Positions 55,847 to 60,914 of a stretch of 64,000 nt of DNA are shown in pieces. The stretch spans positions 62,001 through 126,000 of the forward strand of contig NZ_SMBU01000007.1 in NCBI RefSeq assembly GCF_004342485.1, read 5' to 3'. The notes beneath the pieces are model-generated. The model was not told the DNA's origin. It did not search any database and worked only from the letters and a program-made list of their open reading frames with translations. This DNA is from Roseateles saccharophilus (GTDB lineage: Bacteria; Pseudomonadota; Gammaproteobacteria; Burkholderiales; Burkholderiaceae_C). Numbering within the stretch: position 1 is the stretch's first letter; the number at the start of each line of letters is the position of its first letter. The position numbers and the translations under genes were made by a program.

Positions 55847-56208
55847 GAGGTTCTCTCCGTGGATGAAAGCCGTTTTCGCCTGCAGGCTAGGCAGGCCTAA
55901 CTGAGCCAGCTTTGACAATCGTCAACCGCGCCGGCGGAATTGCCATCGTGGAACAGGCGCATGGCGTCGTGGCCACGGGGGTGCTCCGGCGTGGAGCAGT
56001 ACGAACGGCTGCCGGTGTCGCGCTTGGGTACAGCGCGCATGCCTGGTTGGCGCTGAAACCGCCGCCACCTAACGCCAGGATGACTGGCGTCCGCCTCATC
56101 CGCCCCGTTGGTGCATCACAACGCGGCGGCCCCATCCCGCTTGCGCCAGGCTGCCGACGCCCCCATCATTCGCTCCCCATTGCCGACGGCGCCCACGACA
56201 GCGCCCGC

Positions 56209-56259
56209 ATGACGGAGATCCCTCTTATGTCCTCCCTGTTCATCTCGACCATCGACTGA
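56209..56259 (+). other. Possible 16-residue leader peptide
   Basis: ATG 56209 opens a 17-codon frame (MTEIPLMSSLFISTID, then TGA). It is followed directly by a hairpin and a terminator-like structure before the gene at 56374, the layout of attenuation leaders. No ribosome site stands out, so translation is unproven. Confidence 0.3.
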
Positions 56260-56260
56260 A

Positions 56261-56289
56261 CACGGTTCCCGAGCCCCGGCCGGACCGTG
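56261..56289 (+). promoter_or_regulatory. Hairpin in the leader of the AAA/M41 unit
   Basis: CACGGT (56261-56266) pairs with ACCGTG (56284-56289); the loop is GC-rich and can pair further. It begins 1 nt after the stop of the leader candidate. Confidence 0.4.
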
Positions 56290-56326
56290 TCTGTTCCCAG
56301 ATACGGCCTCAGACCGCGTGGCGTGC

Positions 56327-56365
56327 AAAGCCTCGCCTCCAAAGAGCCGGGGCTTTTGCTTTTCG
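56327..56365 (+). terminator. Terminator/attenuator-like structure before the small basic protein gene
   Basis: AAAGCC (56327-56332) can pair with GGCTTT (56351-56356), followed by the T-rich TTGCTTTT. It lies only 9-10 nt before the start codon at 56374, so it could limit transcription into, or ribosome access to, the two genes downstream. Confidence 0.45.
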
Positions 56366-56373
56366 GAAACCGA

Positions 56374-56601
56374 ATGAGTGACCAACTCCGTTCCCGCGCC
56401 TTGCAAGAAGGCCGGGTCAAGGCCTTGCGCCGCATGAAACAGCCGATGACGCTGGTGCTCGAAGCGAGCCCCGGCGCGCGCGCCATGGTCCAGCGTGGCC
56501 TGCGTGGCGCCGGCCAGCACATCCAGAGTCGCGGCGCCCAGCGCCGTGCCGACCGCGTGGCGCTGCAGGCGCTGCTGCGAAGAAAGGATTGGGATGAGTG
56601 A
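56374..56601 (+). CDS. Small basic protein encoded before the AAA/M41 protease
   Basis: A 75-residue protein rich in Arg, Gln and Ala (RSRALQEGRVKALRRMKQP, HIQSRGAQRRADRVALQALL), probably helical, with no membrane segment or signal. The Arg content suggests nucleic-acid or acidic-protein binding. It overlaps the start of the ATPase-protease gene by 8 bp, so both are made together; an adaptor, substrate or inhibitor role is possible. I do not recognise the family. Confidence 0.7.
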   Translation: MSDQLRSRALQEGRVKALRRMKQPMTLVLEASPGARAMVQRGLRGAGQHIQSRGAQRRADRVALQALLRRKDWDE

Positions 56602-58492
56602 TTCCCAGAACGAACTGCGCGCGCAGCTGGCGCAGAAGAACCAGCAGCTGCAGGCCATTGCCACCCAGCTCAAGACCGAGCTTTTTGGCATCGACCCCAT
56701 CATCGACCGCGTCATCGATTCGGTGCGTGCCTGGTATGTGCTGCCCGAGCTCGTCTCGCGGCCCGTCATCGTCTGCCTTTGGGGCCTGACCGGTACCGGC
56801 AAGACCCAGCTCGTGCGCCGCCTGGCGCAGTTGCTGGGTTTTTACGACCGCTTCGTCGAAGTGCAGATGGACGGCTTCTCCAACGGTGCGGGCTGGCGCG
56901 GTGCACAGAGCATCTCGGGCATGCTGGCCCAGTCCGGCGTGCGTGAGGGCGAGCCAGGCATCCTCGCGCTCGACGAGTTCCAGCGCTTTCGCACTATCGA
57001 CAACAAGCGCGGCGAGGTACGCGTCGAGCGCTACCAGGACGTCTGGGCCCTGCTGTCCGATGGCCGTCTGCCGCCGGCGCTATCGCTGCTGGGTGATATC
57101 GAATCAGCCATTGCCGAGGCGGCCTTCGACGCCGAACGCGCCGACGCCGCCGACGCCGGGCTGCGCTTCAAGCTGCGCAGCTGGGAGGCCCAGGAGCTGC
57201 AGCGTCAGCTCAAGCTCGACGCGCCGCTGCTGGAGATCATGGCCTGGACACCTGAGCAGATCCAGCAGCGCCTGCGCGCCTTCCACGAGAGCGGGCAGCA
57301 GCAGTGGGAGACCGACTACAGCCGCCTGCTCGTGTTCGTCTGCGGCAATCTCGACGAGATGTACGAGGAGCTCGCCACCAGTGTGGACGACTGCGACAGC
57401 GATGCCGACACCTTCCACTCACTGACTGGCAAGCTGAGCGTCATCGACGTCAAGCAGGCGCTGAACAGGCGCTTCAAGCCCGAGCAGGTGGCACGCTTGG
57501 GTAACGAGCATGTGATCTACCCCTCGCTGTCGCGTCGCGCCTACGAGCAGTTGATCGAGCAGGACTGTGCCCGCTATGCCCGCGAGACTGAGGCACATTG
57601 CGGCCTGCACTTCGAGCTGGCCGCCAGCGTGCGCGAGCAGATCTACGCCAACGCCGTCTTCCCCGCCCAGGGCACCCGGCCGCTGTTCTCGTCGCTTCAT
57701 GCCATCCTCGGTGCGGGCCTGGCCAAGGCCGCGCTGTGGGCGCTGGAGCGCGGAGCGGTGGCTGGCGACGGCGTGGGCCTCACCGCGGATGGTCGCAGCC
57801 TGGTCGTGCACTGGCGCGGCCAGTCGCAGGCCATCGCCGCGCCCTTCGAGATCAGCCGCCTGCGCCAGCGCAGCAACGCCGACTTCCGCGCGCTGCTGGC
57901 CGTGCACGAGGCCGGCCACGGCTTGGTGCACGCATTGCTGTTTGACCGTGCGCCGACCGAGATCAAGATCCATGTGGCCAGCTTCGAGGGCGGCTACAAC
58001 GCCTACACCTCGCGCAAGGTCTGGTCGAGCCGGAACCTGCTCGACTCCATCTGCACCAGCCTCGCCGGCCGTGCCGCCGAACTGCTCGTCTTCGGGCCGG
58101 AGATGAGCTCCAGCGGTGCCGAGAGCGACCTGCGCAAGGCCACGGAAGCGGCAGCGCGCATGCTGCGCCACCTCGGTCACGGCGCGCGTATCGGCCGCGT
58201 CGACGTGTCGGTCGACAGCGAGGACAACCTTTGTACCGACGTAGAGGCCAGCAACGCGCCCATCGAGGCGCTGCTGCAGGCCGAGCACGCGCGCGCAACG
58301 CAGCTGCTCGAAATCCATCGGGGCGCATTGCTAGCATTGGTGGACGAGTTGCTGGCGCATGGCCAGGTTACGCCGGACAGGTTCGCGACCGTGGTGGGGC
58401 TGCCGCTGGGCAGGCCCGAGGACGCGCTCGACCCTTACGCGCAGAAGCTGGCGGCGTTCCGCGCGCAGAGGCTGGAGAGGCTGCGGGCCTAG
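56594..58492 (+). CDS. Soluble Clp-like AAA+ ATPase fused to an FtsH-type M41 zinc protease
   Basis: A 632-residue protein. A short coiled-coil (residues 5-30) precedes an AAA+ module with Walker A GLTGTGKT (64-71), Walker B ILALDEF (D127, E128) and a sensor-1 candidate N252. A region like the Clp small-domain entry follows (NRRFKPEQVARLGN, HVIYPSLSRRAYEQLI; 291-321). The C-terminal ~200 residues are an M41 peptidase: HEAGH (438-442) with zinc ligands H438 and H442 and a third at D512 (AESDLRKAT). Unlike FtsH there is no membrane anchor, and the ATPase looks like the Clp/AAA_2 branch. It should unfold and degrade proteins in the cytoplasm. Targets are unknown; the small basic protein is a likely partner. 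Confidence 0.85.
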   Translation: MSDSQNELRAQLAQKNQQLQAIATQLKTELFGIDPIIDRVIDSVRAWYVLPELVSRPVIVCLWGLTGTGKTQLVRRLAQLLGFYDRFVEVQMDGFSNGAGWRGAQSISGMLAQSGVREGEPGILALDEFQRFRTIDNKRGEVRVERYQDVWALLSDGRLPPALSLLGDIESAIAEAAFDAERADAADAGLRFKLRSWEAQELQRQLKLDAPLLEIMAWTPEQIQQRLRAFHESGQQQWETDYSRLLVFVCGNLDEMYEELATSVDDCDSDADTFHSLTGKLSVIDVKQALNRRFKPEQVARLGNEHVIYPSLSRRAYEQLIEQDCARYARETEAHCGLHFELAASVREQIYANAVFPAQGTRPLFSSLHAILGAGLAKAALWALERGAVAGDGVGLTADGRSLVVHWRGQSQAIAAPFEISRLRQRSNADFRALLAVHEAGHGLVHALLFDRAPTEIKIHVASFEGGYNAYTSRKVWSSRNLLDSICTSLAGRAAELLVFGPEMSSSGAESDLRKATEAAARMLRHLGHGARIGRVDVSVDSEDNLCTDVEASNAPIEALLQAEHARATQLLEIHRGALLALVDELLAHGQVTPDRFATVVGLPLGRPEDALDPYAQKLAAFRAQRLERLRA

Positions 58493-59056
58493 TCAGCGGT
58501 ATTGATCCCAGGCCGGCCGCGCCAACGCCGCCAGCATCGCCACGCCCGTGTAGTGGCCGACGATCTGGGTCATCTCGATCAGCGTGGGCTCGTCGAAGTG
58601 CTCGCGCAGCGCCGCCCAGGTCGCGTCGTCCACGTCTATGCGCGCGACGAGGCCATCCACCAGGCGCAGCGCGGCGAGCAGGGCCGGCGTCCACAGCGTC
58701 GGGTCCGGCGCGGGCCGGCGCAGGTCGTCGATCTGCGCGCTGTTCAGGCCCATGCGACGCGAGATCGTCTGCTCGTGCAGGTTGAACTCGTAGCCGCAGC
58801 GCGTGGCGGCGCAGGTGCGCAGGATCAGCGCCTCGCGCAGCAGCGGCGGCAGGCGCCGGCGGTCCGCCAGGCCCGTGGGGCCGAGAAAGCCGCTGTCCAC
58901 CATCTCCTTGAACAGCTCGGCGTGGCGGGCCACGGTCAGGAAGATCTGCGGTGGCGGCGTGCCGGCGGGCAGCAGCCGGGCCATGCGTTCGGCAAGCTCG
59001 GGCGGCAGCGGCAGGGGTTGGGGCGCAATGCGGGGCGAATGTGCTGAGGTGTTCAT
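58493..59056 (-). CDS. Carboxymuconolactone decarboxylase (AhpD-like) family protein
   Basis: A 187-residue helical protein of the CMD/AhpD superfamily (PPLLREALILRTCAATRCGYEF, LHEQTISRRMGL). The CxxC of AhpD is spaced differently here (CAATRC), with the downstream His in LHEQ retained, so a peroxidase-type redox role is uncertain. Its divergent neighbour is an HxlR regulator, and the gap contains two matching operators, which suggests control by a redox- or aldehyde-sensing HxlR protein. Confidence 0.85.
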   Translation of the reverse strand: MNTSAHSPRIAPQPLPLPPELAERMARLLPAGTPPPQIFLTVARHAELFKEMVDSGFLGPTGLADRRRLPPLLREALILRTCAATRCGYEFNLHEQTISRRMGLNSAQIDDLRRPAPDPTLWTPALLAALRLVDGLVARIDVDDATWAALREHFDEPTLIEMTQIVGHYTGVAMLAALARPAWDQYR

Positions 59057-59073
59057 GCTTCGAAATCAGAAGC
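59057..59073. promoter_or_regulatory. HxlR operator candidate 1
   Basis: A 17-bp inverted repeat GCTTCGAAATCAGAAGC (half-sites GCTTC/GAAGC, 7-bp centre), immediately next to the start codon of the CMD-family gene. A related copy lies at 59102-59118. Confidence 0.55.
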
Positions 59074-59101
59074 GTTGGGTGATCGGACTCTAGTCGGATC
59101 T

Positions 59102-59723: not shown

Positions 59724-60857
59724 TCAGGCCGCCACCCGCACCGCCAGCCGCGCCCGCTCGATGGCGGCCAGCAGGGCCCCCTCGGAGAAGGGCTTGCCGA
59801 GCAGTTGGGTCACGCCGGCGGCGGCGGCGGCTTCCTGCTTGTCGTCGGAGGACGTGATCATCAGCACCGGCAGCGCGGCCGTGGCGGCGGCGGCGCGCAC
59901 CTGGCGGGTCAGCTCGAAGCCGTCGATGCCGGGCATCTCGACGTCGGTGATCAGCACATGCGGGCGCTCGGCGGCCATCAGCGCCAGCGCCTGCTCGCCG
60001 CTCTCGGCCAGGGCCACGCGGTAGCTCTTGGTGGCCAGCAGGCGGCTGAGCTTGACGCGCACGATCTTGGAGTCGTCGGCCACCAGCACCAGGGTTTCGT
60101 CGGCACGCAGCTCGCGGGTGGCTGCTGCTGCTGCCGCCTGCTGCGCGGCCCGTTCGCGTGCGAGGCGCTCGGCCTCGCCACGGGCCGCCGCGGCTTCGGC
60201 TGCCGCGCGCTGCGCTGCGGCCTCCTGCTCTGCGCGTTCGCGGGCCAGGCGCTCGGCTTCCGCGCGGGCTGCGGCCTCGGCGGCCAGGCGGTCCAGCTCG
60301 GCGGCCCGGGCGGCCTCCCATTCGGCCCGTTCGCGGGCCTCGATCTCGGCGGCGATGCGTGCGGCCTCGGCTGCGGCGGCCTGGCGGGCAGCTTCTTCGG
60401 CAGCCTCGCGCTCGGCTTGTTCGCGCGCCCGGCGTTCGGCTTCGGCGCGGGCCGATGCCTCGGCGGCGGCCCGGGCGGCTTCGGCCTCCTCGGCGCGGCG
60501 GGCAGCTTCGCGGGCTTCGAGTTCCTCGCGGGCCTGGCGTTCGGCTTCTTCCTGGGCGCGGCGCTCGGCCTGGCGGCGGACCTGGGCCTCCTCGGCCTCA
60601 CGCTGGGCAGCTTGGGCGGCTTGCTGCTCGGCCTGCTGCTGGGCCTCACGCTCGCCGGCCTCGGCGGGGGCGGCCATCTCGGCGGCCAGGCGCTGGGCGC
60701 GGGCCACATGCTCGGCCTGTTCCAGCGCCAGGCGCTGGGCCTCGCGGTGGGCGGAAGCCTCGCGCACGCGCTGCTGGCGCCGCCGGCCCAGCCACAGCAG
60801 CCAAACAAACACCGCCGCGAGCGCGGCGCCCAGGATCCAGATCAACAGCTCATTCAT
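59724..60857 (-). CDS. Membrane-anchored coiled-coil protein with C-terminal receiver domain
   Basis: A 377-residue protein. One membrane helix (residues ~4-24, LIWILGAALAAVFVWLLWL) is followed by a very long Ala/Glu/Arg coiled coil (~25-255, repeats such as AERLARERAEQEAA). A CheY-like receiver domain forms the end: VADDSK (acidic pair), LITDVEMPG (phospho-acceptor Asp), MITSSDD and LLGKPF (conserved Lys). No output domain or kinase lies next to it. It probably holds a phosphorylatable receiver at the inner membrane as a scaffold or phosphate sink. ATG 60857 begins the membrane helix. Confidence 0.85.
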   Translation of the reverse strand: MNELLIWILGAALAAVFVWLLWLGRRRQQRVREASAHREAQRLALEQAEHVARAQRLAAEMAAPAEAGEREAQQQAEQQAAQAAQREAEEAQVRRQAERRAQEEAERQAREELEAREAARRAEEAEAARAAAEASARAEAERRAREQAEREAAEEAARQAAAAEAARIAAEIEARERAEWEAARAAELDRLAAEAAARAEAERLARERAEQEAAAQRAAAEAAAARGEAERLARERAAQQAAAAAATRELRADETLVLVADDSKIVRVKLSRLLATKSYRVALAESGEQALALMAAERPHVLITDVEMPGIDGFELTRQVRAAAATAALPVLMITSSDDKQEAAAAAGVTQLLGKPFSEGALLAAIERARLAVRVAA

Positions 60858-60914
60858 CGTCGGGGAGGCCACACGTGCAGCGAACACCACATCATCGGGC
60901 CCAAGGATGGCAGC

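Follow-up and report, generated by a model that had tools for sequence, protein, structure and literature searches.

P0001, a 632-residue protein encoded in the window (the whole stretch of 64,000 nucleotides from Roseateles saccharophilus that was analysed), joins a Clp/Hsp100-type AAA+ motor to an M41 zinc peptidase in one chain, and is probably a soluble AAA+ protease that comes, in Burkholderiales, with a small basic partner protein and a leader RNA. An earlier note on this DNA had drawn a two-gene unit at 56374-58492. Both frames lie exactly where it placed them and overlap by 8 nt, the protease start falling within the last codons of the small gene, but the unit as drawn omits a conserved leader at about 56141-56373 (Table 1). 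Apart from P0001, the genome encodes a single M41 protein, a canonical FtsH whose gene lies at a separate place. When ten genes of the window were looked for around relatives of P0001, matches were found for the small gene and the protease only, stray hits apart. By eye, a further frame of the window, at 59724-60890, resembles a response-regulator receiver domain preceded by a very long N-terminal stretch rich in Ala, Glu and Arg.

Table 1. Features of the leader, the small basic gene and the protease gene in the window.
Feature	Positions	Strand	Basis
Tentative promoter-like pair TTGCGC, 17 nt, CATCAT	56141-56169	+	By eye
uORF, 10 codons (MSSLFISTID), stop TGA, GGAG before	56227-56259	+	uORF-plus-hairpin rule, covariance model
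Helix 1:2 (ACACGGTTC / GGACCGTGT), loop GCCCCGGC at 56273-56280	56260-56290	+	Pair counts, shuffles
Alternative helix 2:3 (CCGTGTCTG / CAGATACGG), excludes 1:2	56285-56306	+	Shuffles, minimum-energy fold
Terminator-like hairpin (AAAGCCTC / GGGGCTTT, then TTTTGCTTTT)	56327-56363	+	
Small-gene Shine-Dalgarno/start region, partly complementary to strand 1 (56260-56272)	56365-56373	+	Paired in minimum-energy fold
Small basic protein P0002, 75 aa	56374-56601	+	Conserved family A4/A5, purifying selection
AAA+/M41 fusion protein P0001, 632 aa	56594-58492	+	Open frame, profile and structure matches
Clp/Hsp100-type AAA+ module with D2-small-like subdomain, residues 1-415	56594-57838	+	Structure alignment, profile search
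M41 zinc peptidase domain, residues 426-611	57869-58426	+	Pfam M41 (E 3.9e-20), structure, profile

The two halves of P0001 have different relatives

The earlier note had read the ATPase half as Clp-like rather than FtsH-like and had advised searching the whole protein and its AAA half separately. Searched half by half, the peptidase half goes to FtsH and the AAA half to the Clp/Hsp100 branch: the peptidase-half profile finds FtsH or FtsH-like proteins in 23 of 23 matches, whereas the AAA-half profile, run against solved structures at an E threshold of 1e-3, finds Clp/Hsp100 chains in 41 of 46 matches and FtsH in none. An ATPase half lying squarely in the FtsH family, which the note had named as one outcome that would overturn its reading, is thus not seen in the profile matches. 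The motifs that it had picked out, Walker A GLTGTGKT, Walker B ILALDEF, HEAGH (H438, E439 and H442) and the distal ligand D512, were all recovered in P0001.

The peptidase half is an M41 zinc peptidase with HExxH and a third Asp ligand, as in FtsH. Pfam M41 matches 44 of 44 family members, and in the AlphaFold2 model of P0001 (pLDDT 79.5) the M41 domain superposes on 2di4 at 2.9 Å over 164 residues, the two M41 structure matches for this model lying at 2.9 and 3.4 Å. Hydropathy gives no N-terminal membrane helices of the FtsH kind, and the claim that the chain has no membrane anchor is borne out, since its highest 19-residue Kyte-Doolittle mean is 1.31, against 2.36 for FtsH of the same genome; the highest values among relatives are 1.88 for bacterial and 1.78 for viral proteins.

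The assignment of the motor draws on profile search, curated models and structure alignment. The NCBIfam ClpB model matches all 25 AAA-half members (in P0001 at residues 285-381), while none of the FtsH models in NCBIfam matches any of these 25 at E 0.01; the NCBIfam lon model gives weak matches in 10 of them. Pfam ClpB_D2-small is found in 26 of the 44 full-length members, though not in P0001 at E 0.01, and Pfam AAA_2 in 8 of the 44. Structures of ClpX, ClpB, ClpC and Skd3 superpose on the P0001 model over residues about 14-409 at 3.1-5.3 Å, with ClpX 4i81 at 3.1 Å over 273 residues, so that the D2-small subdomain is indicated both by the Pfam and NCBIfam matches and by a fold that extends to about residue 409. 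The other hallmarks of Clp/Hsp100 proteins, namely Walker A and B, sensor 1, the Arg finger and the sensor-2 arginine, are present as well; profile alignment to ClpE places the last two at R301 and R362, which we take to have these roles. Between Walker B and sensor 1, some 80 residues match nothing, and no pore loop of a known type was recognised by eye in the low-confidence stretch 98-103. P0001 is not a ClpA or ClpB orthologue, because its scores (31.7 and 29.5 bits) fall far below the equivalog cut-offs of 993 and 1232. Neither should it be filed as an FtsH, since both the motor and the membrane anchor of FtsH are missing.

No curated family in Pfam or NCBIfam spans the whole 632-residue chain, and no description of such a fusion was found in the open-licence literature, as judged by title and the start of the abstract. 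The domain combination, which the note allowed might prove to be an already characterised protease, was therefore not found described in the families and literature searched.

The small basic gene is linked to the protease at most bacterial loci

A single-sequence scan of genome contigs gave 111 confirmed relatives of P0001, of which 80 loci (55-89% identity) were kept; by genus names they are mostly what we take to be Burkholderiales, the others being labelled by higher taxa only. A homologue of the small gene lies within 1.5 kb upstream of the protease gene, on the same strand, at 56 of these 80 independent loci (83 of 116 when some genomes are repeated), and three of the 24 loci without it (L032, L050 and L053) have less than 400 nt of contig upstream. 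The gene is real and, judged by substitution patterns, under selection, with a pN/pS of 0.175 (78 pairs from 13 loci) or 0.385 over 15 more divergent loci. After dropping forms more than 93% alike, 47 remained, of 73-107 residues, mostly 77-83. The window protein has 17 K+R versus 5 D+E in 73 counted residues and lacks five residues present in close relatives. Searches of Pfam, NCBIfam, PADLOC and PHROGs returned nothing or E values above 0.08, and six relatives searched in PHROGs and Pfam fell in no family (best E 0.023). AlphaFold2 modelled it at pLDDT 63.2 and pTM 0.29, the C-terminal helix being the best part. The 75-residue protein is related to a wider, unnamed family of other small basic proteins, with the core PRNPxxxAA...AGxHxKSxxAxRRxxK, whose genes in several genomes lie apart from that of the protease (L203, L218-L225).

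Among 299 genomes of the family, with both counts taken as drawn from this one sample, a strong copy of the small gene (E up to 1e-18, a cut set after seeing the list) occurs in 28 and the protease in 31. Both are present in 25, where about 3 would be expected by chance, leaving 3 genomes with the small gene only and 6 with the protease only. Three of these six, Variovorax-like, have a divergent small-gene copy elsewhere in the genome. Weaker matches in a further 14 of the 299 are, as far as inspected, the divergent form or members of the wider family. The two genes do not always co-occur, a point that the earlier note had asked to have checked: the small gene was not found upstream at 24 of the 80 loci and is unlinked in Variovorax-type genomes. 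In the flanks of 67 viral copies of the protease, tblastn at E 10 found no homologue of the small protein, and a profile search found a degraded small gene in L125 and L126 and one chance-level match. The small protein may be a dedicated partner in Burkholderiales, where the genes are linked, but no intact copy was found beside the viral proteases.

A conserved leader RNA precedes the small gene

We examined 94 upstream regions. A uORF of 6-11 codons, followed by the same layout as in the window, was found in 75 distinct leaders of sufficient length, with TGA as the uORF stop in 73 and TAA in 2. Six loci fail this uORF-plus-hairpin rule, two of which (L018 and L100) carry the leader further upstream, and the remaining regions were duplicates or too short. 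Only 8 of 1880 shuffled leaders passed the rule. A covariance model of the leader (R1, covering 56220-56294 and trained with the window copy included) found this copy at E 1.5e-15 in a search of the genome, the next match being at 0.1. Rfam 15 gave no match at E up to 1 in window positions 55900-59100 or at nine loci, and no run of a single amino acid was seen in the uORFs. The promoter-like pair was also seen by eye in the leaders of relatives, e.g., L003 and L017, but was not called by an automatic promoter scan of the window; the terminator-like hairpin was likewise not called by an automatic terminator scan in which loops of 3-8 were allowed.

The helices were assessed in 40 non-redundant leaders against shuffles of related sequences, a kind of control that does not give exact probabilities. 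A score of 11 or more is reached by helix 1:2 in 29 of the 40 leaders, against 5.8% of shuffles, and by helix 2:3 in 34, against 14.3%. The alignment of helix 1:2 has 72.6% pairing cells (65.0% when shuffled), 32 cells changed on both sides (14.5 when shuffled) and a covariation of 0.255 (0.164 when shuffled), none of 500 shuffles being as high in any of the three. The number of pairs changed on both sides, however, was reached in 23 of the 500, and the number of further pair types in 201. Slid registers score lower, with two exceptions: for pairs changed on both sides +1 ties, and for pair types both +1 and +3 are higher. The loop GCCCCGGC is complementary by at least 7 bases to a downstream stretch in 35 of the 40 leaders, against 4.9% of shuffles; in the window, this is the 3' arm region GCCGGGGC (56346-56353) of the terminator-like hairpin. 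The window leader folds with a z of -4.75, and its minimum-energy state pairs strand 1 with the start region, the loop with the arm, and strand 2 with strand 3.

Complementarity between strand 1 and the Shine-Dalgarno/start region of the small gene reaches a score of 11 in 16 of the 40 leaders, as compared with 4.2% of shuffles and 14.3% of pairings with the tails of other leaders; examples are CGGTTCC/GGAACCG, GCACTCC/GGAGTGC and CGCACAC/GTGTGCG. The match in the window itself is modest (score 8.6, 5 contiguous pairs) and is approached by a third of shuffles. As strand 1 tracks the Shine-Dalgarno sequence across the leaders, we favour a switch acting on translation rather than on transcription.

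The leader accompanies the small gene and not the protease. In Variovorax-type genomes it is found with the small gene at sites unlinked to the protease, as could be expected if the small protein had nothing to do with the protease, were merely co-transcribed with it, and were preceded by a transcription attenuator of its own. The three small-only genomes, with no remnant of the protease near the small gene, agree with this, and so do the 34 of 40 leaders in which the 14 nt following the GC-rich arm include at least 7 T, as in an intrinsic terminator. Yet the excess of genomes with both genes over chance, the overlap of the frames in the window and the pairing of strand 1 with the Shine-Dalgarno region, which exceeds that of shuffles across the leader set, all speak against mere co-transcription. 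We hold it possible, though less likely than the reading in which the small protein is a partner of the protease.

Distribution of the protease and its viral copies

The protease has a patchy distribution across bacteria. With the window genome counted each time, the samples gave 31 of 299 genomes for the family, 1 of 300 for the order, 3 of 369 for the class and, by a profile scan, 2 of 398 for the phylum; none of the three other listed genomes of the genus has it. The two class-level copies from another order (L084 and L085) are 34% identical. Judged by eye, hisF and hisE frames flank the gene there and tatABC-like frames follow, and hisI, which would be expected between the two his frames, was not seen.

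Among viral contigs, a profile scan found 67 loci; the contigs range from 10.8 to 548 kb, and 20 of the loci are on contigs of at least 200 kb. At least 590 residues are encoded by 63 of the 67 frames, and an 85% identity cut leaves 44 representatives of these 63. Terminase PF03237 was found on 16 of 49 records tested; a search for the T4 portal gave no match in 33 records, and none in its controls either. Each of ten chosen neighbour genes matches a phage family, for the most part one of replication or of nucleotide or NAD metabolism, including a clamp loader, a DNA helicase, a Dda-like helicase and thymidylate synthase. There is no widely recurring partner gene, the commonest non-protease neighbour being present at 8 of the 44 representatives. 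A collection of isolated phages, searched with three queries, gave no relative covering 80% of the query, and a plasmid collection gave none. One 297-kb viral contig (L124:146-9451) carries about 29 tandem small frames directly upstream of its protease gene, their C-termini ending in variants of DEEAALFKLTHL, an array seen at 1 of the 67 loci by the pattern used; the shared tail could be a degron or an assembly tag.

In an unrooted tree of 70 chosen sequences, built by a quick method, the 24 Burkholderiales-type copies group together (support 89); L125 joins this group (support 100), which otherwise stands among viral branches, and the two his-operon copies are on a separate branch. We favour a phage origin of the bacterial copies, and the gene, recurrent in huge phages, was apparently taken up into bacterial chromosomes on two or more occasions. 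L125 and L126 are short contigs filed as viral, with the leader, the degraded small gene and a 51%-identical protease; they are possibly bacterial DNA or a provirus.

The earlier note had also suggested a defence role. Support for this comes from one small side clade only: next to the protease of L060 and L074 stand GmrSD-like, WYL and DUF2779 genes (Cas4-like in L060, with PP2C in L074), and L052 has an IetA-like AAA ATPase and a VWA protein nearby. An anti-phage module would also fit the patchy distribution and the weak matches of the NCBIfam anti-phage ATPase IteA model to 3 of 25 AAA halves (best 3.9e-5). However, these three loci lack the small gene, and what recurs elsewhere is instead an upstream gene read by eye as hrpA, common to 19 of 39 representative bacterial loci, and a downstream gene read as argA, kept in 17 of the 39. 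PADLOC gives P0001 a weak best match (20 bits over residues 9-96) and the small protein none at E 1, and many relatives are phage-borne. A defence module is in our view unlikely.

The active site is conserved and a divergent FtsH is very improbable

P0001 might be a remodelling chaperone or a regulator whose peptidase is dead or serves for self-processing only; inactive FtsH-like proteins of plastids are indeed named among the peptidase-half matches. In an alignment of 44 chosen members (9 bacterial and 35 viral, with nine further viral representatives left out), however, the HExxH residues H438, E439 and H442 and the distal ligand D512 are invariant, very divergent viral copies included, as are K70, T71, D127 and E128 of the motor and N252, R301 and R362. 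HExxH is kept in 63 of 67 viral frames, and one of the nine representatives outside the alignment (L184) has GKS in place of GKT. A dead or solely self-processing peptidase is quite unlikely, and the chimera is real and looks functional.

Equally, P0001 could be a divergent FtsH without its anchor, its Clp likeness a convergence of the AAA core, for the order of AAA and M41 domains is that of FtsH, the best Pfam AAA model for P0001 is general AAA (29.1 bits) and not AAA_2, FtsH chains come top by E-value in Foldseek, and in the structure alignments whole FtsH chains reach Z 20.8 against 20.5 and 20.4 for Skd3 and ClpX; this is very improbable and largely refuted by the AAA-half profile matches, by whole-FtsH alignments that reach only 10.9-15.4 Å, by the alignment of its GTRP with GARP of ClpE, and by the FtsH equivalog model TIGR01241, which covers residues 430-593 only, at 60.2 bits against a cut-off of 600.

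Proposed mechanism and comparison with known systems

By analogy with both parent families, six chains of P0001 would form a ring which unfolds its substrate at the expense of ATP and feeds it to the M41 peptidase; the protein most likely works like both FtsH and Clp. In Burkholderiales, the small basic protein would be its partner, most likely an adaptor, a regulator or a substrate. The uORF and the alternative helices could couple expression to translation of the uORF: strand 1, when free, could mask the Shine-Dalgarno/start region of the small gene by pairing, and this region would be released by a ribosome standing on the uORF stop or by local formation of helix 1:2. More tentatively, it is quite possible that this further class of AAA+ protease is in widespread use by huge phages to remodel the proteome of their hosts, and was captured at least twice by bacteria, whose Burkholderiales copies have acquired a small specificity factor and a translation-sensing RNA switch.

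Among the AAA+ proteases known to us, the FtsH motor is the sole partner of M41, and any peptidase serving an Hsp100 motor is a separate protein. A chimera occurring in nature would demonstrate that motor and peptidase parts are exchangeable; P0001 would offer a single-chain soluble system in which to study the handover of substrate from a Clp motor to a peptidase, and its relatives point to a protease family recurrent in huge phages. The leader is a conserved riboregulator candidate that is easy to probe with reporters.

With FtsH and the m-AAA and i-AAA proteases, P0001 shares a C-terminal M41 domain with HEAGH and a distal Asp, and motor and peptidase in one chain, but it differs from them in its Clp/Hsp100-type motor and in having no N-terminal membrane helices. 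Hsp100 motors work alone or with a separate ClpP. P0001 resembles the ClpB D2 module, ClpX, ClpC, ClpE and Skd3 in its AAA core, Arg finger, sensor-2 arginine and D2-small-like subdomain, and differs in the fused zinc peptidase and the extra residues, about 80, between Walker B and sensor 1. Lon, too, is soluble and unites an AAA+ motor and a peptidase in a single chain, but the latter is a serine peptidase and the motor is different. In leader-peptide attenuators of the erm/trp type, a short uORF is followed by helices that exclude one another and by a start site that can be occluded; the window leader shares all three, yet has no Rfam match and precedes a small basic protein and a protease.

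As for phages, the words FtsH and M41 are absent from the text available to us of a comparative survey of 224 jumbo phages (PMC7824862). The FtsH-like protein of phages MIJ3 and PA5oct is treated as an FtsH in the portion of its report that we could consult (PMC6892783). It is likewise an M41 protein encoded by a jumbo phage, but a viral member of the present family matches its M41 part only (query residues 429-593).
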